Below are positions 3,042-49,861 of a stretch of DNA of 64,000 nt, piece after piece. The first letter of the stretch is position 1. Each line of letters starts with the position of its first letter. The notes under the pieces were generated by a model that saw nothing but the letters and a program-made list of their open reading frames with translations, made no database searches and had not been told where the DNA came from. This DNA comes from Micrococcus lylae NBRC 15355. Its GTDB lineage: Bacteria > Actinomycetota > Actinomycetes > Actinomycetales > Micrococcaceae. Location: assembly GCF_001570885.1 (NCBI RefSeq), contig NZ_BCSN01000005.1, positions 1-64,000 of the forward strand, written 5' to 3'. Both the position numbers and the translations under genes were made by a program.

Positions 3042-3935
3042 TCAGCGCTGCGGGGCCTGGCCGGGCTCGTCGCCCATGACGATCGGCACGCGCACGGCGT
3101 TGCCCCATTCGGTCCAGGAGCCGTCATAGTTGCGGACGTCCTCGTAGCCGAGCAGGTGCTTGAGCACGAACCAGGTGTGGGAGGAACGCTCGCCGATGCG
3201 GCAGTAGGCGATCACCTTGTCGGTCTCACCGAGTCCGGCCTCGTCGCGGTAGATCGCCTCGAGCTCGGCGCGGGACTTGAAGGTGCCGTCCTCGTTGGCG
3301 GCCTTCGCCCACGGCACGGAGGCGGCGGTCGGGATGTGGCCGCCGCGGAGGGTGCCCTCCTGCGGGTAGCCGTCCATGTGGGTGGTCTCGCCGGTGTACT
3401 CCTTGGGGGAGCGCACGTCGATCAGCGGGGTGGAGCCGAGGGCGGCCAACACGTCCTCGCGGGCGGCGCGATCGGTGGTGTCGTCGCGGTCGGTCACCGG
3501 GTAGTCGACCGGGGTGACGGACGGGACCTCGCGGGTGGTCTCGCGGCCCTCGGCGATCCACTTGTCGCGGCCGCCGTTCATCAGGCGGGTGTCCCTGTGG
3601 CCGTAGAGCGTGAAGACCCAGAGGGCGTAGGCGGCCCACCAGTTGGACTTGTCGCCGTAGAACACCACGGTGGTGTCCGGGCCGATGCCCTTGGAGCCGA
3701 GCAGCTCCGCGAAGGCCTCCGGACCGACGAAGTCGCGGGTCACCGGGTCGTTGAGCTCGGTGTGCCAGTCGATCTTCACGGCACCGGGGATGTGACCGGT
3801 GGAGTAGAGCAGGGTGTCCTCGTTGGACTCGAGGACCACGACGTCCTCGTCGCCGATGTGCTCGGCGACCCAGGCGGTGGAGACGAGCTTCTCAGGGTGG
3901 GCGTACTCGGCGAACTCGGTGGAGGTCTCAGCCAT
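3042..3935 (-). CDS. sseA: Thiosulfate/3-mercaptopyruvate sulfurtransferase (two rhodanese domains)
   Basis: The 297-residue protein has tandem rhodanese domains. It transfers sulfane sulfur from thiosulfate or 3-mercaptopyruvate to an acceptor such as cyanide or a thiol. The catalytic loop [11 protein letters not shown] of the second domain places the persulfide cysteine at Cys245; the first domain is structural, as usual. I chose ATG 3935 over the in-frame GTG at 3944 because AGGAAGAGG then sits 8 bases upstream, whereas the GTG lies inside that sequence. Its product could feed sulfur chemistry served by the neighbouring sufE. A 233-base gap separates it from divergent zapE. Confidence 0.92.
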
Positions 3936-4168: not shown

Positions 4169-5236
4169 GTGGCCCAGACCGTCCATCTGTCCGAGCGCTC
4201 CCCGCAGGTCTCGGCAGACGAACTGCTCGCCGGCTTCCAGCCGTCCTACCGCTTCGGTGAGGTGTCCTTCGACACCTACATCCCGGACCCGGCCCATCCG
4301 TCGCAGGCGGAGGCCGTGAACCGGCTGAAGGACTTCGCGGCCTCGATCGGTGGCGGGCGCGGCGGGCATGGCGGCTCCGGAGGCTTGTTCGGCGGCCTGT
4401 TCGGCGGGAAGAAGCGGGCGGCGGGGCCGGCCGGCATCTACCTGGACGGCGGCTTCGGCGTCGGCAAGACCCACCTGCTCGCCTCCACCTGGCACGCCGC
4501 CCCGGGCCCGAAGGCCTTCGGCACCTTCGTGGAGTACACCAACCTGGTCGGCGCCCTGTCCTTCCGCAAGGCCGTGGACGTGCTCAAGGAGTACACCCTG
4601 GTCTGCATCGACGAGTTCGAGCTGGACGACCCGGGCGACACCGTCCTCATGTCCCGCCTCATGCGCGAGCTGGCCGACGCCGGCGTCCGCCTCGTGGCGA
4701 CCTCCAACACCCTGCCCGGCGCCCTCGGCGAAGGCCGGTTCGCCGCACAGGACTTCAAGCGCGAGATCCAGGTGCTCGCCGAGCAGTTCGAGGTGATCCG
4801 CGTGGACGGCGAGGACTACCGCCACCGCGGCCTCTCCGAGGCCCCCGCCCCGCTCGACGACGCCGAGGTCATGGACACCGTGGCGAAGAACTTCCCGGAC
4901 GTCGGTGTGGTGGCCGAGGACGACTTCGCCGACCTCACCGCCATGCTCTCCCGCGTGCACCCCTCGCGCTACCGGGAGCTCGTCAAGGACGTGGACGTCA
5001 TCGCCCTCCACAACGTGGAGACCATCACCGAGCAGGCCACCGCGCTGCGCTTCGTGGTGTTCGCGGACCGGCTCTATGACAAGGACGTCCCAGTGGTCGC
5101 CTCCGGCACCGCCTTCGACGAGCTGTTCACGCACGAGATGATGCACGGCGGATACATGAAGAAGTACTTCCGCACCGTCTCCCGCATGACCGCGCTCGTC
5201 CGCGAGGGCCAGCTCGGCATCGCCGAGGAGAAGTGA
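4169..5236 (+). CDS. zapE: ZapE/AFG1-like AAA ATPase
   Basis: The 355-residue protein is an AFG1/ZapE-type P-loop ATPase. In proteobacteria ZapE acts at the late division ring, while the actinobacterial role is unclear. Walker A is GGFGVGKTHL with Lys100, Walker B is LVCIDEFEL, and sensor-like ATSNTLPGAL follows. The region DFKREIQVLAEQFEVIRVDGEDYRHR is characteristic of the family. A Gly-rich insert ([20 protein letters not shown]) sits before Walker A. The GTG start follows AGGAAAGGGAG. The next gene begins 30 bases downstream and may be cotranscribed. Confidence 0.88.
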   Translation: MAQTVHLSERSPQVSADELLAGFQPSYRFGEVSFDTYIPDPAHPSQAEAVNRLKDFAASIGGGRGGHGGSGGLFGGLFGGKKRAAGPAGIYLDGGFGVGKTHLLASTWHAAPGPKAFGTFVEYTNLVGALSFRKAVDVLKEYTLVCIDEFELDDPGDTVLMSRLMRELADAGVRLVATSNTLPGALGEGRFAAQDFKREIQVLAEQFEVIRVDGEDYRHRGLSEAPAPLDDAEVMDTVAKNFPDVGVVAEDDFADLTAMLSRVHPSRYRELVKDVDVIALHNVETITEQATALRFVVFADRLYDKDVPVVASGTAFDELFTHEMMHGGYMKKYFRTVSRMTALVREGQLGIAEEK

Positions 5237-5266
5237 CGCCGCGGTGACCGGCGCGGGGGACCGCCG

Positions 5267-6256
5267 ATGAGCGGCTCCGTGCCCTCGCCCGGCGGCACCG
5301 ACCCGGACGGCAGGCAGGCCCTGTCGGCCGTCGAGGCCGCCGTCCGCCGTGCCCTCCGCGTCCCCGGCGTCCGCGTGGACCGGGAGCGATTCCTCCTCAG
5401 GCAGGCCCGGGGCCTGCTTCCCGACGACGGCGCACGCCGCCGGGTCCTGACCGAGGGCCTGGCCGCCGTGCTCACCGAGCCCGAGATGCGCGCCCTGGGC
5501 CTGCGGCGGGTCCTGCAGCTGACCGCCTGGTCCTCGTCGGCCGCCGTGGTGTCCGCCCTGCCTGCAGGGCCGGTGGCGATGACCGCCGGCGCCGGCGCCG
5601 ATGTGATGCAGCAGCTCGTCTTCGGCCTGCGCCTGTCCCAGGAGCTCGCCTATCTCTACGGGCACCGGCTCTCCGGCACCGACCACGAGGGCGCCCCGCC
5701 GACCGACGCGGAGCTCGAGCAGCTTCTCCTGCTCTTCGGCGGCCTGCTGGAGGTGGAGGGCGCCGCGGCCGCCGTCCGGCTCACCGGTCCGCGCCTGGAG
5801 CGCGACGGACGTCCCGTCGGCTACGGCGACGGCGACTGGGGTCGACGCAGCGGAGGCGAGTCGACCGGCGGAGGGCTCGACGCCGATGCCGGCATCGGTG
5901 CTGACGCCGGCTTCGGTGCTGACGCCGGCTTCGGTGCCCGGACGGGGGCTGGTGCCAGGGCAGGTGCCGCGGGCGCTGGGCTGCCGGCCGACCTGCTGGG
6001 CCGCAGCGTCATCGGACCGATCTGCCGACGGGTACTCGCCCGGTTCGCCTCCCGCATGCAGTCCGTGGTGCTGCGCCGCGGGGTACTGCGCGCTGTGCCG
6101 GTGCTCGGCGCGATCGGTGCCGGGGGAGCGGCCTTCTCCGCGCTCCAGGCCCAGGGGCGCATCCTCAACCACGAGCTGGCCGAGGGACTCGACTACACGC
6201 CGGACAAGGTGATGGACGATGTGGAGGCGCTGCGGCGGGCGCTGGGCGCCGGTTGA
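5267..6256 (+). CDS. Hypothetical protein with internal 6-residue repeats, possibly EcsC-like
   Basis: I do not recognise this 329-residue protein with certainty. The N-terminal half has amphipathic helices and a hydrophobic patch (WSSSAAVVSALPAGPVAMTAGAG). The middle (about residues 185-245) is low-complexity and contains three ADAG[IF]G repeats coded by an 18-base tandem repeat. The C-terminal part has a glycine-rich hydrophobic stretch (VPVLGAIGAGGAAFSALQA) before a charged tail. The pattern of membrane-skimming helices and Gly/Ala hydrophobic ends loosely resembles EcsC-type proteins, but that is only a guess. It starts 30 bases after zapE and ends just before a bidirectional hairpin. Confidence 0.75.
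   Translation: MSGSVPSPGGTDPDGRQALSAVEAAVRRALRVPGVRVDRERFLLRQARGLLPDDGARRRVLTEGLAAVLTEPEMRALGLRRVLQLTAWSSSAAVVSALPAGPVAMTAGAGADVMQQLVFGLRLSQELAYLYGHRLSGTDHEGAPPTDAELEQLLLLFGGLLEVEGAAAAVRLTGPRLERDGRPVGYGDGDWGRRSGGESTGGGLDADAGIGADAGFGADAGFGARTGAGARAGAAGAGLPADLLGRSVIGPICRRVLARFASRMQSVVLRRGVLRAVPVLGAIGAGGAAFSALQAQGRILNHELAEGLDYTPDKVMDDVEALRRALGAG
5882..5935 (+). repeat. 18-base tandem repeat, three units
   Basis: Units lie at 5882-5899, 5900-5917 and 5918-5935. Units two and three are identical and the first differs at a few bases. They encode ADAGIG-ADAGFG-ADAGFG in frame in the hypothetical gene, so copy number can change without a frameshift. Confidence 0.9.
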
Positions 6257-6268
6257 CCGAGGACGTAA

Positions 6269-6299
6269 GAGGCCCTGCCGGCATCGCCGACAGGGCCTC
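6269..6299. terminator. Bidirectional hairpin between hypothetical gene and tRNA cluster
   Basis: GAGGCCCTG (6269-6277) pairs with CAGGGCCTC (6291-6299), with a further inner pairing of four bases. It lies between the plus-strand gene ending at 6256 and the minus-strand tRNA ending at 6309. Confidence 0.75.
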
Positions 6300-6308
6300 G
6301 AAGATGAA

Positions 6309-6385
6309 TGGAGCGGATGACGGGATTCGAACCCGCGACCTCCACCTTGGCAAGGTGGCGCTCTAGCCAACTGAGCTACATCCGC
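6309..6385 (-). tRNA. tRNA-Gly (GCC), copy 2, CCA encoded
   Basis: The minus strand folds as a full cloverleaf with acceptor GCGGATG/CATCCGC, GTTCGAATC T-loop and anticodon GCC in CTTGCCAAG. Discriminator T is followed by an encoded CCA (6309-6311). The body is identical to the copy at 6634-6707, which lacks the encoded CCA. Confidence 0.95.
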
Positions 6386-6417
6386 AGAACCGGTCGGCCA
6401 CTGAAGACCACCGTCCG

Positions 6418-6489
6418 TGCGCGATACTGGGTTCGAACCAGTGACCTCTTCCGTGTCAAGGAAGCGCGCTACCACTGCGCCAATCGCGC
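6418..6489 (-). tRNA. tRNA-Val (GAC)
   Basis: The acceptor GCGCGAT/ATCGCGC, T-arm CTGGTTCGAACCCAG and anticodon loop TTGACAC (anticodon GAC) are all present. No CCA is encoded. Confidence 0.95.
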
Positions 6490-6543
6490 TCATCAGCCTC
6501 ACGACTGCTGAGTACAGTTCCTTCCATCTCTGGAGGAGCCGCG

Positions 6544-6614
6544 AGGTCGGGACGGGATTCGAACCCGCGTATACGGCTTTGCAGGCCGCTGCCTCGCCTC
6601 TCGGCCACCCGACC
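6544..6614 (-). tRNA. tRNA-Cys (GCA)
   Basis: The acceptor GGTCGGG/CCCGACC, anticodon loop CTGCAAA (anticodon GCA) and a U discriminator are as expected for tRNA-Cys. No CCA is encoded. Confidence 0.95.
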
Positions 6615-6633
6615 AGGGTTGAAAGGTCATGCG

Positions 6634-6707
6634 AGCGGATGACGGGATTCGAACCCGCGACCTCCACCTTGGCAAGGTGGCGCTCTAGCCAACTGAGCTA
6701 CATCCGC
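6634..6707 (-). tRNA. tRNA-Gly (GCC), copy 1, promoter-proximal
   Basis: This is the first tRNA of the minus-strand cluster Gly-Cys-Val-Gly. Its 74 bases are identical to the later Gly copy, but CGC rather than CCA follows the discriminator. Confidence 0.95.
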
Positions 6708-6884
6708 ATGGATCGACGCGGCGATCGTCTTCCTCATCGGAACCGCTCGCCGCGTTTTCCAACGAGAAAGAACTCTAGACCATGTCGTCGGCGGATGCCA
6801 AATCGGGGGCGGGCGCGCCCTGCAGGGCAGGAGGTGTCAGCCGTCTCACCTGTGGAGACCCGACGCCCCGTCCGGACCGCCTGC
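6708..6884. promoter_or_regulatory. Divergent region between tRNA cluster and nuclease-like gene
   Basis: No gene is apparent in these ~180 bases. An open frame from an ATG at 6782 joins the nuclease-like gene in phase, but its 39 codons look non-coding. The part nearest the tRNAs is A/T-richer, and on the minus strand TTGGAA lies 17 bases before CGATGA, a weak promoter candidate for the tRNA cluster. Confidence 0.3.
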
Positions 6885-6898: not shown

Positions 6899-7876
6899 AT
6901 GACCCAGCCACGCCTCGCCCACGCCACAGAGCGCGGGCGCATGTACTCGCGCAAGCTCGGCGGCCTGCCGGAGGTGCCGTCGATCACCACCGTCATCGGC
7001 CTGGAGAAGGCGGACCTGGACGGCTGGGTCGGTTGGATGGCCGCTGACGCCGCCACGAAGGACGCCCGGCTCGGACAGGCGCTGGGCTCCTCGGCACGGC
7101 TGCGCCAGATCGCTCGGCAGAACGCGGACGCCGCCGCCAAGTACCGTGACGCCGCCGCCGAGCGCGGCGACCGGGTCCACGACTACGCCGAGCAGGTCTC
7201 CCTCCGCGCCCTCGGCAGGCCGCACCGCATGGCCGAGTGCCGGCAGACCCTGATCCAGCACGGCGAGGGCGCCTACGCCGACCGCTTCGACGAGTGGTGG
7301 GACCTCTACGGCGTGCAGCCCGTGGCGGCCGAGGTGACGGTCTGGAACGACTCCGTTGGCTACGCGGGCACGCTGGACCTGGTGGCGCGCATCGGCGGGC
7401 GGCTGTGCCTGATCGACTTCAAGACCAAGACCACCGGACGCGACGGCCGGGTCAAGCCGCTCGACCCCAAGGTGGTCATGCAGCTCGTGGCCGGCCTGCA
7501 GGCCGAGGAGTCCCTCGTCGACGCCGAGGCCGGCACCTGGGAGCCCTGGGCCCACGGCGGCGCCGAGATGCTGCTGGGCGTCGCCGTCGGCGAGACCGAG
7601 GTGGCCGTCCACCAGGCCAACCCCGCCGTGCTCAAGCAGCACTGGCACAAGTTCTGGGCGCTCCGCCAGCTCTGGACCCACCAGGAGGCCGCCGCTGAGG
7701 CCGGCCCCGCCCTGCGCGAGATCGGCCCGCCGCCGGTGCAGCGTGCCGGTGCCGGCAACGGTGCCGATTCCGCAGCCCGCGGCAGCGGCGCACCGGTCGG
7801 CGGGGCGCCGTCCCGGGCCGGATCCCACGCCGCCACGGCTGCTCCGGCGGGAGCCGAGGGACCGTCAGCCCGATGA
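6899..7876 (+). CDS. PD-(D/E)XK nuclease superfamily protein
   Basis: The 325-residue protein has a RecB/Cas4-like nuclease core. Glu145, Asp160 (in YAGTLDLV) and Asp173-Phe-Lys175 (in LIDFKTK) match the metal-binding pattern E...D...(D/E)xK of the superfamily. An upstream helix-rich region (KYRDAAAERGDRVHDYAE) resembles the segment before the core in phage-type and RecB-family exonucleases. No helicase or Cas genes are nearby, so the partner is unknown. The C-terminal ~60 residues are low-complexity. The frame stops at 7876, but good coding sequence continues in another frame to 8033, suggesting a one-base frameshift. Start ATG 6899 is supported by the -10 spacing. Confidence 0.75.
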   Translation: MTQPRLAHATERGRMYSRKLGGLPEVPSITTVIGLEKADLDGWVGWMAADAATKDARLGQALGSSARLRQIARQNADAAAKYRDAAAERGDRVHDYAEQVSLRALGRPHRMAECRQTLIQHGEGAYADRFDEWWDLYGVQPVAAEVTVWNDSVGYAGTLDLVARIGGRLCLIDFKTKTTGRDGRVKPLDPKVVMQLVAGLQAEESLVDAEAGTWEPWAHGGAEMLLGVAVGETEVAVHQANPAVLKQHWHKFWALRQLWTHQEAAAEAGPALREIGPPPVQRAGAGNGADSAARGSGAPVGGAPSRAGSHAATAAPAGAEGPSAR

Positions 7877-8033
7877 CCAGCCTGCCGGTCCGCACCGGGT
7901 CGGACCCCGCCCCGGGGCCGAGGACGAGGAGGTGCCCGAGCCGGGCGACGGCCTGCCGGGCCCTATGCCGGGCGACGGACTGCCGGCCCCTATGCCGGGC
8001 GACGGCCTGCCGGACCCCGAGCCGGGCGACTGA
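7877..8033 (+). pseudogene. Out-of-frame C-terminal tail of the nuclease-like gene
   Basis: Skipping one C in the GCCC run at about 7868-7871 carries the nuclease-like frame past its TGA. It continues through DDQPAGPHRVGPRPGAEDEE and three 9-residue repeats to a stop at 8031-8033. Third codon positions here are nearly all G or C, as in real genes of this genome. I infer that the tail was once, or still is by recoding, part of the upstream protein. A sequencing error is equally possible. Confidence 0.45.
7941..8030 (+). repeat. 27-base tandem repeat, three units plus a partial
   Basis: Units at 7941-7967, 7968-7994 and 7995-8021, with a 9-base partial unit to 8030, encode PGDGLP[GAD]P[ME] in the frame ending at 8033. 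The period is a multiple of three, as expected for a coding minisatellite. Confidence 0.88.
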
Positions 8034-8200
8034 CTGCCGGCCCGGTGCCTCCACCGCGCGGTGGACCACCTGGATGGCATGCTGTCCGTGGGCCGTCTCG
8101 TCGCCTCCGTCCTCGGAAGGCGCCGACGTCCCACGGCCACCGCAGCATCCGTGTCCGCACCGCCCGTCGGTGCGCCACCGGCCAGACACCCCAGGAGACC
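8034..8200 (+). promoter_or_regulatory. Leader/promoter region of fmt
   Basis: The 167 bases carry a short palindrome (CCACCGCGCGGTGG near 8058-8071) and otherwise GC-rich sequence without a convincing -10 box. CAGGAGACC directly precedes the fmt ATG. Confidence 0.3.
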
Positions 8201-9355
8201 ATGACTGACCACGCCGCCCCGCCCGCCGCGCAGGCGACTGCGCAGACCACCGCCCAGCCGGCCGAGCCGGCGTCCGCCCAGGACGCGGGCGCACCGCTGC
8301 GTGTCCTCTACGCAGGCACGCCCGAGACCGCGGTGCCCGTGCTCGAGGCGCTCGTGGCCTCCCGCCACCGGGTCGTCGGCGTGCTGACCCGGCCGGACGC
8401 CCCGCTGGGCCGCAAGCGGGTGCTCACCCCGTCCCCGGTGGCCGCGGCCGCCGAGGCCCACGGCATCCCCACCGTCAAGGCCGACCGCCTCCGCGGGGAG
8501 GCCGGCGCCGAGGCCGCCGAGGCGATCCGTGCGCTGGGAGCGGACGTGGCCGTCGTCGTGGCCTACGGTGCGCTCGTGCCGGCCGAGCTGCTGGACGTGC
8601 CGAAGCACGGCTGGCTCAACCTGCACTTCTCCACGCTGCCCGCCTGGCGCGGCGCCGCCCCCGTGCAGCGCGCCATGATGGCCGGCGAGACCCGCATCGG
8701 CGCCGACGTGTTCCAGCTCGAGGAGGGCCTGGACACCGGTCCGGTCTTCGCCAGCATGCACCGGGACGTCGCACCCGGCCAGACCTCCGGTGACCTGCTC
8801 GCCGCGCTAGCCGTGGACGGGGGACCGCTGGTGGTCGAGGTGCTGGACGGACTGTCTGCCGGCACCGCCGTCGCCACGCCGCAGCAGGGCGAACCGACCC
8901 ACGCCGAGAAGCTCTCCCACGCCGACGGGCTCGTCGACCCCGCCGGTGACGCGGACGCGGTGGGCGCGCTGGTCAACGGGGTCACCCCGGAGCCCGGTGC
9001 CTGGGGCTGGATGATCGCCGACCCCGCCGACGCCCCCACCCGCTTCAAGCTCGACGCCGTCCTGCCGCACGCCGAACAGACCCTGCCTGCCGAGGTGGCC
9101 GAGGCGTCCGCCGGAGACCTGCTCGTCGCCGCCCGGAAGGCGTGGCTGCGCACCGGCCCGGGTGCGCTCGAGCTCACCCGTGTCCAGCCGGCCGGCAAGA
9201 AGCTCATGGCCGCCGCCGACTGGGCCCGCGGCGCCAACGGCTCGCCCCGCCTGCTGGCCGGTCCCGAACTCGCCGCCCACACGGCTGGGCTGCAGGCCGC
9301 CCACGCGGCTCGGCTCGCCGCCCGCACCACCGCCGAAGGGAACACCCGCGCATGA
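8201..9355 (+). CDS. fmt: Methionyl-tRNA formyltransferase
   Basis: The 384-residue enzyme formylates initiator Met-tRNA using 10-formyl-THF. The N-terminal domain begins LRVLYAGTPETAVPVLEAL after a ~28-residue Ala/Gln-rich extension. The active-site segment LNLHFSTLPAWRGAAPVQ holds the catalytic Asn and His, and GLDTGPV supplies the Asp. The C-terminal OB-fold tRNA-binding domain (ALELTRVQPAGKK) is complete. ATG 8201 follows CAGGAG; the frame is open for 52 further codons upstream, but these look non-coding. The stop overlaps the rsmB start (ATGA), so the two are translationally coupled. Confidence 0.96.
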   Translation: MTDHAAPPAAQATAQTTAQPAEPASAQDAGAPLRVLYAGTPETAVPVLEALVASRHRVVGVLTRPDAPLGRKRVLTPSPVAAAAEAHGIPTVKADRLRGEAGAEAAEAIRALGADVAVVVAYGALVPAELLDVPKHGWLNLHFSTLPAWRGAAPVQRAMMAGETRIGADVFQLEEGLDTGPVFASMHRDVAPGQTSGDLLAALAVDGGPLVVEVLDGLSAGTAVATPQQGEPTHAEKLSHADGLVDPAGDADAVGALVNGVTPEPGAWGWMIADPADAPTRFKLDAVLPHAEQTLPAEVAEASAGDLLVAARKAWLRTGPGALELTRVQPAGKKLMAAADWARGANGSPRLLAGPELAAHTAGLQAAHAARLAARTTAEGNTRA

Positions 9356-43792: not shown

Positions 43793-45559
43793 ATGCTCAC
43801 GAGACTGCACAACAGCCTCGGACTGCGGACCAACCCGCAGATCTTCTTCGTCTCGGCGGCCATCGTGGTCGTCTTCTCCGCGCTCATGGTGCTCGTCCCC
43901 GGCGCCATGCAGGCCGGATTCGGCGCGGTCGCCGCGTGGATCGCCGGCAATCTCGGCTGGTTCTACGTCCTGGCCATCACCGGCATGATCCTCTTCGCGT
44001 TCGGCATCGCCTTCAGCCGGTACGGCCGGCTGAAGCTCGGCGACGACGACGCCACCCCGGAGTACTCCGGCCTCGCCTGGTTCGGCATGCTCTTCGCCGC
44101 GGGCATGGGCGCGACCCTCATGTTCTGGGGCGTGGCCGAGCCGGTCAGCCACTTCGCCGACCCGCCCATGTACGGCACCGAGCCGGAGACCGTCCAGGCC
44201 GCGTCCGAGGCCATGGGCATCGCGAACTTCCACCTCGGACTGCACATGTGGGGCATCTTCATCGTCCCCGCGCTGGCCTTCGCGTACTTCACGTACAAGC
44301 GCAAGCTCCCGCCGCGCATGTCCTCGGCCTTCCAGCCGCTGATCGGCGAGAAGATCCACGGACCGATCGGCAAGGCCATCGACATCCTCGCCGTCGTCGC
44401 CACCATCTTCGGCATCTCCGTGTCCGTGGGCCAGGGAGCCCTGCAGATCAACAGCGGCGCCAACATCATGTTCGGCGTCCCGATCGCCGGCTGGGTGCAG
44501 GCGGCGATCCTCGCGATCATCACCGCCGTCGCCCTGATGTCCGTGGTCGCCGGCCTGGACAAGGGTGTCAAGCGCCTGTCCTACATCAACATCACCATCG
44601 CCATCGCCCTGCTGATCTACATCCTCATGTTCGGCGCGACCACGCAGGCCGTGCAGGGCACCGTGGAGTCCATCGGCCAGTACCTGACGATGATCCCGGC
44701 GCTGGCGTTCTTCAACACCACCTGGAGCGAGTCCGACTGGACCGGCGACTGGGCCGTGTTCTACTTCGCCTGGACCGCCACCTGGGCGCCGTTCGTGGGC
44801 ATGTTCATCGCCCGCATCTCCCGCGGCCGCACCATCCGCCAGTTCGTGCTCGGCGTGCTGCTGCTGCCGACCGCCTTCACCTTCATCTGGCTCGGGGTCA
44901 TGGGTGTGAACGCCTTCAAGCTCGAGCTGGCCGGCGAGGCGAACTTCGTGGAGACCATCGTGGAGGAGGGGGACATCCCCGGCTCCCTGTTCCAGTTCCT
45001 CGGCCACTTCCCGCTGCTCGAGGTCACCTCGATGGTGGCGCTGATCTGCATCACCGTCTTCTTCATCACCTCCATCGACTCGGCCGCCCTGGTGATCGAT
45101 TCGATGTCCTCCGGCTACGACGACGTGGGGCCGACCCGCCAGCGCGTGTTCTGGGCCATCTCCATCGGCCTGGTCTGCACCGTGCTGCTGACCACCACCG
45201 GCGAGGAGTCGCTCTCCGCGCTGCAGGAGGTCATCAAGGTGATCGGCCTGCCCGTCACGATGATGATGTTCCTGCAGGCGCTCTGCCTGGTGCGCGCGGT
45301 CCGCGAGGACTACGGCGGACTCGCCCCGATCCGCACCCGCCAGTGGAAGCCGGTGATCCCGATCGAGGAGTATCACCGCCGTGCCGGGGAGGACGAGCAC
45401 GACATCAGCGACTACTCCATGCGACCGGCCTACGAGGAGGGCACCGAGCCCGAGTTCGACCGCTGGGAGCCCAGAGGCGTGCCGACCGCCGGCCCCGCCG
45501 ACCGGGTCCGCAGCGAGCATCCGACCGGCAGCGACGCCGCGGACAAGACCAGCGGCTGA
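43793..45559 (+). CDS. BCCT-family betaine/choline/carnitine transporter
   Basis: The 588-residue protein has 12 expected membrane helices and the BCCT landmarks GDDDATPEYSGLAWFGMLFAAGMGATLMFWGVAEP and WTATWAPFVGMFIARISRGRTIR. The family imports glycine betaine, choline, carnitine or similar compatible solutes, often driven by Na+ or H+ and triggered by osmotic stress. The C-terminal ~75 residues are cytoplasmic and acidic. It is closely similar to the transporter part of the gene at 46549, so the two are paralogs. The substrate is not determinable here. Confidence 0.93.
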   Translation: MLTRLHNSLGLRTNPQIFFVSAAIVVVFSALMVLVPGAMQAGFGAVAAWIAGNLGWFYVLAITGMILFAFGIAFSRYGRLKLGDDDATPEYSGLAWFGMLFAAGMGATLMFWGVAEPVSHFADPPMYGTEPETVQAASEAMGIANFHLGLHMWGIFIVPALAFAYFTYKRKLPPRMSSAFQPLIGEKIHGPIGKAIDILAVVATIFGISVSVGQGALQINSGANIMFGVPIAGWVQAAILAIITAVALMSVVAGLDKGVKRLSYINITIAIALLIYILMFGATTQAVQGTVESIGQYLTMIPALAFFNTTWSESDWTGDWAVFYFAWTATWAPFVGMFIARISRGRTIRQFVLGVLLLPTAFTFIWLGVMGVNAFKLELAGEANFVETIVEEGDIPGSLFQFLGHFPLLEVTSMVALICITVFFITSIDSAALVIDSMSSGYDDVGPTRQRVFWAISIGLVCTVLLTTTGEESLSALQEVIKVIGLPVTMMMFLQALCLVRAVREDYGGLAPIRTRQWKPVIPIEEYHRRAGEDEHDISDYSMRPAYEEGTEPEFDRWEPRGVPTAGPADRVRSEHPTGSDAADKTSG

Positions 45560-45621: not shown

Positions 45622-46371
45622 TCAGGTCGGGTCCGCTCCGTCCACGTCCACCCAGTCGTGGCCGACCGGCACGGCCGTGCCGGCGCCGGAGGTGACCGAG
45701 GCGAGTGAGGCCTGAAGGGACTCGATGCGGGTGGGGGAGTCCGGCACGGCGACGCACAGCACGGCGGCGTCCGCCTCGTAGCGCACGTCGTGGACGTGAT
45801 GCCCGGCGGAGTCCAGCTCGTGCTGCCAGCGGCCGGCCTCGGCGTGGGGGGCATCCACCTCGAACAGGGCCATGCGGGAGCGGGTGACCAGGGGTGCGGC
45901 GTCGAGGGTCGCGCTCACCGTGTCCGAGTAGGCGCGCACCAGCCCGCCGGCGCCGAGCTTGACGCCCCCGAAGTAGCGGACCACCACGGCGCAGACGTCG
46001 GTGAGGTCGCGAGCGCCGTCCGGACCGGTCTGGCGCTGCATCAGGGCCTCGAGCATGGGTACACCGGCGGTGCCGGCCGGTTCGCCGTCGTCGTTGGAGC
46101 GGGCCTGGCGACGGTCCGGCCCGAGCACGAACGCGCTGCACACGTGCCGGGAGTCGTGGAAGCGCCGGCGCAGGGCCGAGATCATCTCGCGTGCGTCGTC
46201 CTCGGAGTCCACGCGGGCCACGAAGCCCAGGAACCGGGAACGCCTGATCTCCAGCTCCACATGGGTCCACCCGTCCTCCGGGCGGGTCCGCGCGGCGGGC
46301 ACCGTGCAGCGCACCACGCCGGCGGCGGCGTCGGATGCGGCAGGGGAGACGGCTGGGTCTGAGGCGGACAT
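45622..46371 (-). CDS. yigZ: YigZ / IMPACT family protein
   Basis: The 249-residue protein has the N-terminal UPF0029 (IMPACT) domain: ELEIRRSRFLGFVARV, DSRHVCSAFVLG, NDDGEPAGTAGVPMLEAL and VVVRYFGGVKLGAGGLVRAYS. The C-terminal DUF1949-type domain follows. The family is linked to translation control and nucleic-acid binding, but its exact role is unsettled. ATG 46371 is favoured over an upstream ATG (46425) because TAGAGT lies 7 bases before it. It lies between two BCCT genes on the opposite strand. Confidence 0.92.
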   Translation of the reverse strand: MSASDPAVSPAASDAAAGVVRCTVPAARTRPEDGWTHVELEIRRSRFLGFVARVDSEDDAREMISALRRRFHDSRHVCSAFVLGPDRRQARSNDDGEPAGTAGVPMLEALMQRQTGPDGARDLTDVCAVVVRYFGGVKLGAGGLVRAYSDTVSATLDAAPLVTRSRMALFEVDAPHAEAGRWQHELDSAGHHVHDVRYEADAAVLCVAVPDSPTRIESLQASLASVTSGAGTAVPVGHDWVDVDGADPT

Positions 46372-46372
46372 G

Positions 46373-46402
46373 GGCTCCACTCTAGGGCGGCTCCACTCTA
46401 GG
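46373..46402 (-). promoter_or_regulatory. Duplicated -10 element of yigZ
   Basis: GGCTCCACTCTAGG occurs twice in tandem with a 16-base period (46373-46386 and 46389-46402). On the minus strand each copy holds a TAGAGT -10 box. The nearer one ends 7 bases before ATG 46371, giving a leaderless mRNA; the farther one would add 16 bases. Confidence 0.6.
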
Positions 46403-46456
46403 CCCGTGACACCCCGGCCTGACACAGCCGGTCTCGACCTGTGCCGAGCTTCTGCC

Positions 46457-46548: not shown

Positions 46549-48927
46549 ATGAACTCATTCCTGACGCGCCTTCACGACCGCCTGGGGCTGCGCACCTCGC
46601 CCGCGATCTTCTTCGCCTCGGCCCTGGTCATCATCGTCTTCACCGTCGCCATGGGAGCGTTCCCGGGCCCGGTCCAGCAGGTCTTCGGCGTGGCCGCCCA
46701 GTGGCTGCGCTATGACATCGGCTGGTTCTACACCGCCTCGGCGACCTGCCTGGTGGTCTTCGCCTTCGGTCTCGCGTTCTCCCGCTTCGGCCGCGTCAAG
46801 CTCGGCGACGACGACGCCACCCCGGAACACTCCGGCATCGCCTGGTTCGGCATGCTCTTCGCCGCAGGCGTCGGCGCCGTGCTCATGTTCTGGGGCATCG
46901 CCGAGCCGATGAACCACTACGCCAACCCCCCGCTGGAGGGCACCGATCCCTACACGGACCAGGCCCTGATGCAGGCGATCAACTTCGCCAACCTGCACTT
47001 CGGCATCCACATGTGGGGCATCCTCCTGGTGCCGGGCCTGTGCTTCGGGTACTTCACGTACAAGCGCAAGCTTCCCCCGCGCGTGTCCTCCGCCTTCCAG
47101 CCGATCCTCGGCGACGGCATCCACGGACCCATCGGCAAGACCATCGACGTCGTCACCATCGTCTCCACGGTGTTCGGCATCGGCGTGTCCACCGGCCTGG
47201 GCGCCCTGCAGATCAACGCGGGCATGAACTACGTGTTCGGCACCCCGATCGCCGGCTGGGTCCAGGCGCTGATCATGGCCGTGATCACCGCCGCCGCGCT
47301 CACCTCCGTGCTGGCCGGCATGGACAAGGGCGTCAAGCGCCTGTCCTACATCAACATCTGCATGGCTGTGGCCTTCATGCTCTACTGCCTGATGTGGGCG
47401 GAGTCCTCGCTCAACGTCCTGCGCGGCATGGTCGAGTCCGTCGGCCGCTACGTGCAGGCGCTGCCCATGCTCACCACCTTCAGCGACACCCTGGGCGGCG
47501 GCGCCTGGTCCGGTGACTGGACCGTCTTCTACTGGGCGTGGACCGTGTCCTGGGCACCGTTCGTCGGCCTGTTCGTCGCGAAGATCTCCCGCGGCCGCAC
47601 CATCCGCGAGTTCGTCTTCGCCGGCATCGGCATCCCGACCGCCTTCGTGATCATCTGGATGGGGGTCTACGGCTTCTCCTCCTACCAGCTGGACCGGTCC
47701 ACCGCGTCGGCGCCCGGCGCCCCGGGTGAGATGACCCAGACCATCGTGGTGGACGGCAACGTCCAGGCCGCGCTGTTCCAGTACCTGCAGCACATGCCGC
47801 TGTACCTGCCGGTCGCCACGTTCGCCCTGCTGATCATCGTCATCTTCTTCGTCACCTCCATCGACTCCGGCGCCCTCGTCATGGACGCCATGGCCTCCGG
47901 GCACGAGGAGGAGACCACCCGGCGCCAGCGTGTGTTCTGGGGCCTGTCCATCGGCCTGGTCTGCACGGCCATCATCACCACCGCCGGCGAGGACGGCCTG
48001 GACGCCCTGCAGGAGGTCATCATCGTCATCGGCTTCCCGGTGATGGTCCTGACCCTCATGCAGGCCGCCCTGCTGCTGCGCGCCCTGCGCGAGGACGCCG
48101 GCTCCCTCAAGCCGATGCGCACCCGTCAGTGGAAGCCCGTGCTCCCCGCGGAGGAGTACCACCGCCGTGCCCAGGAGGGCGGCGTGGACATCACCGACTA
48201 CTCCATCCGCCCGCAGTTCGAGGTCGGCACCGAGCCGGAGTACGACACGCACACCCCGAACACCTGGCACCAGCAGAAGACGGTCGCCGAACGCGCCGCC
48301 GTCACCATCGGCATGTCCGGTGCCGTGGCGTCCGGCAAGTCCCTCGTGGCCTCTGAGTTCGCGCGCCACGGTGCCGTCGTCGTGGACTACGACGACCTCA
48401 TGCACGAACTGCTCGTGGCCGGCCACCCCGCCGTCCGGGAACTCGGCGGCGTGTTCGGCGAGGACATGGTCCGCGCGGACGGCTCCGTGGACTGGACCGC
48501 CGTGGACGCCCTGACCGCTGAGTCCACCGCCGCCCGCACCCGCCTCTACGAGGTCGTCGACCCGCACGTGAAGGCCGAGGCGAACCGCCGGGCCGCCGCG
48601 ATCGGCGACGACGCGGTCCTCGTGGTGGACCTGGCCCTGCTGGACGAGTCCTCCTCGGCCCGCGACTTCGACCGCGTGATCGTGGTCGAGTCCTCGGTGG
48701 AGTCCCGCGTGGAGCGGCTCATGGCCGAACTCGGCCTCACCCGCGAGCAGGCCTGGGCCGAGATCGACGCGGATGCCCAGGACGCGGACCCCAGCGACGC
48801 TCCCGGCTGGACCACCATCGAGAACTCCGGCACCCGTGAGGAGCTCTCCGCTGCGGTGGACGCCTACTGGTCCGAACATGTCCAGCCCGTGCTGGACCAG
48901 GTGAAGGCGGCGTCCACCGACGCCTGA
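46549..48927 (+). CDS. BCCT transporter fused to a CoaE-like P-loop domain
   Basis: The 792-residue protein starts MNSFLTRLHDRLGLRTS, matching the paralog at 43793. Residues ~1-560 form a complete BCCT transporter (GDDDATPEHSGIAWFGMLFAAGVGAVLMFWGIAEP, WTVSWAPFVGLFVAKISRGRTIR). From residue 585 the frame continues without a break into a dephospho-CoA-kinase-like domain: P-loop GMSGAVASGKS (588-598) and VVDYDD (Asp613). The CoaE motif HPxI has become DPHV (671-674), PLLxE has become LALLDE, and the RIxxQ segment is lost. The domain is therefore probably not a normal kinase; it may bind nucleotide or CoA and sense energy state. An in-frame GTG at 46471 could add 26 residues. Intact coaE follows after 187 bases. 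Confidence 0.88.
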   Translation: MNSFLTRLHDRLGLRTSPAIFFASALVIIVFTVAMGAFPGPVQQVFGVAAQWLRYDIGWFYTASATCLVVFAFGLAFSRFGRVKLGDDDATPEHSGIAWFGMLFAAGVGAVLMFWGIAEPMNHYANPPLEGTDPYTDQALMQAINFANLHFGIHMWGILLVPGLCFGYFTYKRKLPPRVSSAFQPILGDGIHGPIGKTIDVVTIVSTVFGIGVSTGLGALQINAGMNYVFGTPIAGWVQALIMAVITAAALTSVLAGMDKGVKRLSYINICMAVAFMLYCLMWAESSLNVLRGMVESVGRYVQALPMLTTFSDTLGGGAWSGDWTVFYWAWTVSWAPFVGLFVAKISRGRTIREFVFAGIGIPTAFVIIWMGVYGFSSYQLDRSTASAPGAPGEMTQTIVVDGNVQAALFQYLQHMPLYLPVATFALLIIVIFFVTSIDSGALVMDAMASGHEEETTRRQRVFWGLSIGLVCTAIITTAGEDGLDALQEVIIVIGFPVMVLTLMQAALLLRALREDAGSLKPMRTRQWKPVLPAEEYHRRAQEGGVDITDYSIRPQFEVGTEPEYDTHTPNTWHQQKTVAERAAVTIGMSGAVASGKSLVASEFARHGAVVVDYDDLMHELLVAGHPAVRELGGVFGEDMVRADGSVDWTAVDALTAESTAARTRLYEVVDPHVKAEANRRAAAIGDDAVLVVDLALLDESSSARDFDRVIVVESSVESRVERLMAELGLTREQAWAEIDADAQDADPSDAPGWTTIENSGTREELSAAVDAYWSEHVQPVLDQVKAASTDA

Positions 48928-49114: not shown

Positions 49115-49861
49115 GTGACCGAGACCGTCGCACCCCACCCCTCCCGTCCCCGTCTGCACGTGGGCCTGACCGGCGGCATCGCCGCCGGCAAGTCGACGGT
49201 GGCCCGGGTGTTCGCCGAGCGCGGCGCCATCCTGGTGGACGCGGACAAGATCGCCCGCGACGTGCTCGCCCGAGGCACCGAGGGCCTCGCCGCCGTCCAG
49301 GACGAGTTCGGCGACCGCGTCATCACCGCCGAAGGGGACCTGGACCGTGCCGCCATGGCCGAGATCGTCTTCACCGACCCGGCCGCCCGCGAGCGCCTCA
49401 ACCGGATCGTCCACCCGCGCATCCGCGCCTTCGGCCGCCGGCTCGTGGCGGAGGCCGGCCCGGACGCCGTGGTGGTCCAGGACGTGCCGTTGCTCGTCGA
49501 GTCCGGCCAGGCCTCCGCCTACGACCTGGTCGTCGTCGTCGAGTCGCCGGTGCAGGAGCGCATCCGCCGCATGGTGGAGGACCGCGGCATGACCGTGGAG
49601 GACGCCCAGAACCGCATCGCCGCCCAGGCGAGCGACGAGGAGCGCCGCAAGGCCGCCGACGTGCTCCTGGTCAACGACGCCGACCTGGATGCGCTGAAGC
49701 GCGCGGCGAACAAGGTCTGGGACCGCTTCATCGCCGTCGACGGCGACGGCTTCGACCCGGACTCCACCCAGGGCCGGGACGAGCCGGCCGGCGAGGCACC
49801 GGCTGCCGACGCCGCCGAGCCGGCCGAGGACCGCGGCGAGGGGCGCGCCCAAGGCCGGTGA
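49115..49861 (+). CDS. coaE: Dephospho-CoA kinase
   Basis: The 248-residue enzyme phosphorylates dephospho-CoA in the last step of CoA synthesis. All motifs are intact: P-loop [12 protein letters not shown] (Lys26), [26 protein letters not shown] and AQNRIAAQ. The C-terminal ~45 residues are an Ala/Glu-rich extension. GTG 49115 follows GAGGAGAG. It aligns end to end with the degenerate domain fused to the transporter just upstream, including spacing of the P-loop and DxD. Confidence 0.95.

Follow-up and report, generated by a model that had tools for sequence, protein, structure and literature searches.

Micrococcus lylae NBRC 15355 encodes a full BCCT transporter whose frame continues into a degenerate dephospho-CoA kinase (CoaE) domain, for which the role tentatively proposed here is that of a retained pseudokinase, binding an adenine nucleotide (or CoA) and modulating the trimeric transporter. 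The fused gene and its neighbours lie as follows in the window, meaning the whole stretch of 64,000 nucleotides analysed.

43793-45559, plus strand: unfused BCCT paralogue, 588 aa, of a sister clade, ending soon after the linker
45622-46425, minus strand: YigZ/IMPACT-family protein (UPF0029), part of the conserved neighbourhood
46549-48927, plus strand: BCCT-CoaE-like fusion gene, 792 aa, ATG start, single frame kept in related genomes
46606-48096, plus strand: BCCT transporter domain, residues 20-516 (Pfam match; TmaT the nearest solved structure)
48097-48300, plus strand: conserved cytosolic linker, REDAG...TRQWK..LP.EEYHRR...RPxFEVGTEPE...
48304-48924, plus strand: putative CoaE-like pseudokinase domain, residues 586-792 (Pfam, motif residues and predicted fold)
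49115-49861, plus strand: separate canonical coaE (dephospho-CoA kinase), GTG start, with every motif intact, from the lineage sister to the fused domains

As an earlier note on this DNA had described, positions 46549-48927 form one uninterrupted frame, open for 792 aa, with a CoaE-like domain at the end of a full BCCT transporter. Pfam places the BCCT family (PF02028) at residues 20-516 (E 7.7e-154, profile positions 1-485 of 485) and the CoaE family (PF01121) at residues 586-750 (E 1.6e-27, 97 bits for the whole protein). The CoaE-like domain, about 210 aa long, scores 101 bits when taken alone and the separate coaE 195 bits, with a cut-off of 27 bits for PF01121. Codon-position composition has no dip at the junction (GC3 of 0.88-1.00 along the whole fusion frame), and the linker is also found as the C-terminal tail of unfused BCCT relatives. 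The intact coaE that the same note placed 187 bases downstream does start there, at 49115, in a conserved gene neighbourhood of rpsA-MTase-yigZ-fusion-coaE-uvrB. The whole M. lylae genome contains only two CoaE matches, the fused domain and the separate coaE, and five BCCT matches.

The fused domain of M. lylae retains the nucleotide-binding loop GMSGAVASGKS (K597), which had been recognized earlier, as well as D615, the lid arginine R723 and N759, and it has lost H671, P696, R738 and Q742. The reported losses of HPxI, PLLxE and RIxxQ, which are near-invariant in ordinary CoaE, agree with the alignment, where these motifs now read DPHV, ALLDE and EIDAD. In Mycobacterium tuberculosis (Mtb) CoaE, Lys14 and Arg140 are used for ATP binding, Asp32 and Arg140 for catalysis, and Leu114 for dephospho-CoA binding, and changes of Asp32 or Arg140 leave a small fraction of activity (PMC3019153). 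The P-loop lysine, Asp32 and Arg140 are all present in M. lylae, as K597, D615 and R723. The full catalytic set (K, D, H, P, R, R and Q) was found in six of 35 fused domains, all from Citricoccus, and at least one conserved active-site residue is lost in the other 29. At the P-loop lysine position there is K in 22 domains, R in nine, and A, T or V in four; the lysine is therefore lost in 13/35, by at least four changes on the tree, and the lysine-less domains include much of Micrococcus and Arcanobacterium. Asp615 (Mtb Asp32) changed at least two times and is lost in part of Kocuria, and HPxI and PLLxE are gone in the Micrococcus and Kocuria fused domains. The term degenerate, used for the domain from the first, suits M. 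lylae in its lost catalytic features, but the degree varies by lineage and the Citricoccus domains are intact.

Other positions are fixed. Arg723 (Mtb Arg140), Asn759, Trp774, Gly591 and Gly596 are invariant in all 35 fused domains. Two residues of the lid helix, W736 (35/35 fused domains vs 1/70 ordinary CoaE) and D740 (34/35 fused domains), are, judging from the alignment, new lid positions specific to the fused domains. Modelling of the domain for comparison with CoaE structures, as had been suggested, gave a complete predicted CoaE fold (pLDDT 89, pTM 0.85), with CoaE crystal structures as the best matches (Z 21.4 over 200 residues) and adenylate-kinase rows at Z 14.6. The domain is thus a CoaE by descent and fold, by its PF01121 score, its predicted fold and its nesting among CoaE in the tree, and the loss of catalytic residues together with the keeping of predicted fold and selection is that expected of a pseudokinase.

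A regulatory role is proposed because the fused domain has a single origin, a predicted fold, nucleotide-side residues that are kept, the new W736, purifying selection, and a history of descent and lateral transfer as one unit. According to the alignment, the nucleotide-side residues are selectively kept and the catalytic and CoA-side residues repeatedly lost. In the proposed mechanism, a duplicated cytosolic CoaE domain, placed permanently on a BCCT secondary transporter, would have changed its role from enzyme to regulatory domain. It would sit in the cytosol under the transporter trimer, as BCCT C-termini do, and bind an adenine nucleotide, with CoA or dephospho-CoA also possible in lineages with an intact pocket. 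The ligand would cause lid closure or domain association, and the signal would pass to the transporter through the conserved linker, at the place of the regulatory C-terminal helix of BetP, with transport raised or lowered as the outcome. Against this reading, the loss of the P-loop lysine, and of Asp615 in part of Kocuria, would weaken nucleotide binding; the same losses would also speak against one ligand common to all members. A further point against it is that selection on the fused domain is, in most pairs, looser than that on the transporter part, and the conserved residues of the fused domain may serve folding instead of binding.

The monomer-trimer exchange of Mtb CoaE is controlled by dephospho-CoA and CTP (PMC3123319), and the BCCT proteins form trimers as well (PMC11708041, PMC13270143); a three-fold match would therefore be an attractive means of coupling. 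A more specific version, in which the CoA or adenine-nucleotide state gates the transporter and all three transport units open or close as three CoaE-like domains associate or separate in response to ligand, is doubtful, its coupling geometry in the trimer being conjecture. A CoaE that can trimerise (PMC3123319) on a trimeric BCCT protein (PMC11708041) would suit a structural clamp or docking platform, which would stabilise the trimer or recruit CoaE or another partner with no ligand gating. The fold and the lid tryptophan are kept while the active-site lysine, the CoA-site histidine and the proline are lost, as such a role would allow; however, a pure scaffold would have no need of the invariant nucleotide-side Arg723 and Asn759, and this explanation is considered possible though not probable.

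In 11 close pairs, lysine-less pairs included, the dN/dS of the fused domain is 0.14-0.55, and in the same comparison the BCCT part has 0.04-0.35 and coaE 0.10-0.30. In most pairs the BCCT part is under tighter selection than the fused domain, and from these ratios the fused domain appears to be under relaxed but clear purifying selection. Such values argue against a decaying passenger, that is, an accidental C-terminal fusion that is tolerated and functionless, as do the full length of the domain in nearly all fused copies found, the invariant positions with the new invariant tryptophan, and the retention of the domain after horizontal transfer to several families. A passenger is unlikely on these grounds, even though in most pairs the BCCT half evolves more slowly than the domain, the catalytic residues lost differ by lineage, and a truncated copy exists in Kocuria marina. 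The Citricoccus fused domains, in which every tested catalytic residue is kept, would be compatible with a bifunctional protein whose dephospho-CoA kinase still works and, attached to the transporter, couples CoA synthesis to import; this is very unlikely, as Citricoccus also has a separate intact coaE directly downstream, 29/35 fused domains are without one or more conserved active-site residues, and, depending on the lineage, Lys, Asp, His, Pro or Gln is lost, though not the arginine.

Other BCCT-CoaE fusions, looked for as the earlier note had advised, are present in Micrococcus, Citricoccus, Kocuria and genera outside the family. A junction profile made of TM12, the linker and the CoaE-like domain was run on 395 family genomes from 32 genera and matched 29 genomes in three genera (Micrococcus, 11/11 genomes; Citricoccus, seven; Kocuria, 11). 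All 11 Micrococcus genomes have the CoaE-like domain in a frame of BCCT-fusion size adjoining coaE; their loci were also checked gene by gene, and single-contig assemblies are among the fusion carriers. A hidden stop, or homologs always encoded as two proteins, had been named as ways in which the fusion could fail, and neither holds, the same continuous frame recurring in the 11 Micrococcus genomes and in other genera. An assembly or annotation artefact with a stop hidden between two genes has practically no probability left, because the identical open frame occurs in 29/395 family genomes, single-contig assemblies included, and in other families, and no point in its favour was found.

Within Citricoccus, the fusion is present in 7/8 genomes, and the remaining one (G068) has coaE with no fusion at the locus. 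Outside the family, the named genome collection contains it in Dermacoccus abyssi, three Arcanobacterium species, a Trueperella MAG and a contig labelled Gammaproteobacteria. In a class-wide sample, the fusion was found in 2/395 genomes and therefore is not a general actinobacterial trait, and a search of the plasmid collection returned no copy. In Kocuria marina KCTC 9943 (4573-6831 of its locus), the fused gene is truncated within the CoaE-like domain, with a frame of 752 aa, which is either a real loss or a sequencing error; a profile match in G109, probably the same K. marina genome, stops at 252/308 profile positions. Two Micrococcus genomes (G002 and G010; loci L062 and L070) have two complete fused genes in tandem, and this duplication may be old within Micrococcus, as the upstream copies of both loci group together. 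In G010, another coaE-uvrB pair, a distant one, is found on a small contig (C196, L071) of a draft genome with 6% contamination, and the pair is probably a contamination.

The CoaE tree comprised 105 domains, 35 of them fused, and the focused set 66 rows. All 35 fused domains group together, with the ordinary CoaE of Micrococcus and Citricoccus as their sister group, and in the focused tree the fused clade has support of 100/98, apart from the CoaE of the hosts themselves. An independent duplication of fused and ordinary CoaE within Micrococcus was rejected (AU p 2.6e-6). The BCCT halves also form one clade (support 100), and the branching of the two halves is broadly alike. Dermacoccus is nested within Micrococcus, Arcanobacterium branches next to Micrococcus and Kocuria next to Micrococcus terreus (G013/L100), and the "Gammaproteobacteria" copy falls with Citricoccus; the coaE genes of the hosts group elsewhere, with their own lineages. 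Because the trees of both halves agree and the host coaE genes are placed elsewhere, one fusion event with later horizontal spread is deduced. By this phylogenetic evidence, the fusion arose once, at or before the ancestor of Micrococcus and Citricoccus, and the fused gene was later passed to other families, sometimes to sites away from coaE.

In a sister genus (g13), coaE is preceded on the same strand by an ordinary BCCT gene, its immediate neighbour in 3/4 genomes (L152-L155), and in one of them (L153) the open frames of the two genes overlap slightly. This arrangement is likely the pre-fusion state, with a BCCT-coaE link older than the fusion, and judging from gene order the coaE duplicate joined a BCCT gene already upstream of coaE. 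A tandem duplication of coaE followed by capture by the transporter, as had been supposed, is supported in the origin of the duplicate beside coaE, but the event was not local to M. lylae. In Kocuria and Dermacoccus, the fused gene is directly upstream of the coaE of the host, a position that recombination through coaE homology would fit. At the Arcanobacterium, Trueperella and MAG loci, coaE and uvrB were not found beside the fused gene, and in the Arcanobacterium and Trueperella copies the two halves stayed joined after transfer. The copy on the contig labelled Gammaproteobacteria (JAAYXJ010000212.1, 4387-6927) adjoins the gene for DNA polymerase III alpha and represents either an inter-phylum transfer or a mis-binned or chimeric contig.

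The nearest solved structure to the BCCT part is the trimethylamine transporter TmaT (38% identity, TMt 0.95). Four TmaT residues, W146, Y154, W326 and W329, are conserved only in quaternary-ammonium transporters (PMC11708041). In the alignment, the first three are replaced in the fusion by F151, L159 and T332; W156, W331 and W335 are kept, W335 being the sole aromatic-box residue among them. All aligned fused proteins have T332, which other unfused members of the subfamily share. Because three of the four aromatic-box positions are replaced (PMC11708041), the transported substrate may not be a quaternary ammonium compound, and of the initial label "osmolyte transporter", the full BCCT transporter stands and "osmolyte" is doubtful. 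Genes neighbouring the fusion were searched for a substrate clue, and none was found except in Arcanobacterium bovis, where the fused gene (7026-9203 of its locus) is followed by genes for an M20 amidohydrolase and a DUF7916 protein, which may give a hint but one too thin to name a substrate. Arcanobacterium ihumii has a GntR-family regulator gene (3196-3786 of its locus) upstream of the fusion and, between the two on the other strand, a GNAT acetyltransferase. A literature search on BetP Trp374 found nothing.

No relevant paper was found in literature searches for BCCT-CoaE proteins, fused Micrococcus transporters or BCCT kinase-domain fusions; an automatic entry for the architecture may already exist in public domain databases. 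Each half is a member of a known family, and what looks new is their combination and its evolutionary course. The fusion offers a single-origin case in which a metabolic kinase was captured by a transporter and its catalytic residues were lost stepwise, with intact (Citricoccus), half-degenerate (M. lylae) and lysine-less forms (much of Micrococcus, Arcanobacterium) that can be compared side by side, and it occurs throughout Micrococcus, a genus common in laboratories and on skin. If the gating were true, it would link BCCT transport to CoA or energy status, a connection that the papers found do not describe for the family.

Compared with known systems, the fusion shares the full 12-helix BCCT fold with BetP, BetT and TmaT (PF02028). 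BetP and BetT have regulatory cytosolic C-termini, and BetT has a long chain in its structure (8ybq); unlike the fusion, no solved BCCT relative found carries a kinase-fold C-terminal domain, and the aromatic box of TmaT is largely changed in the fusion (F151, L159, T332). The CBS domains of OpuA, ClC and MgtE are nucleotide-sensing cytosolic domains on transporters and follow the same logic of a cytosolic ligand-binding domain on a membrane transporter, which in the fusion is putative; however, they are unrelated to the fused domain, which derives from a metabolic kinase. With CoaE (PF01121), the fused domain shares the complete predicted fold (Z 21.4 to the Legionella enzyme) and descends from the coaE of the Micrococcus/Citricoccus lineage; it differs from ordinary CoaE in being joined to a transporter, in having lost HPxI, PLLxE and RIxxQ here, and in having gained W736 and D740. 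M. tuberculosis CoaE is likewise an actinobacterial CoaE in a fusion (with a C-terminal UPF0157) and has ligand-controlled oligomerisation (PMC3019153, PMC3123319), but it is a soluble active enzyme whose CoaE part is N-terminal, whereas in the BCCT fusion the CoaE part is C-terminal.
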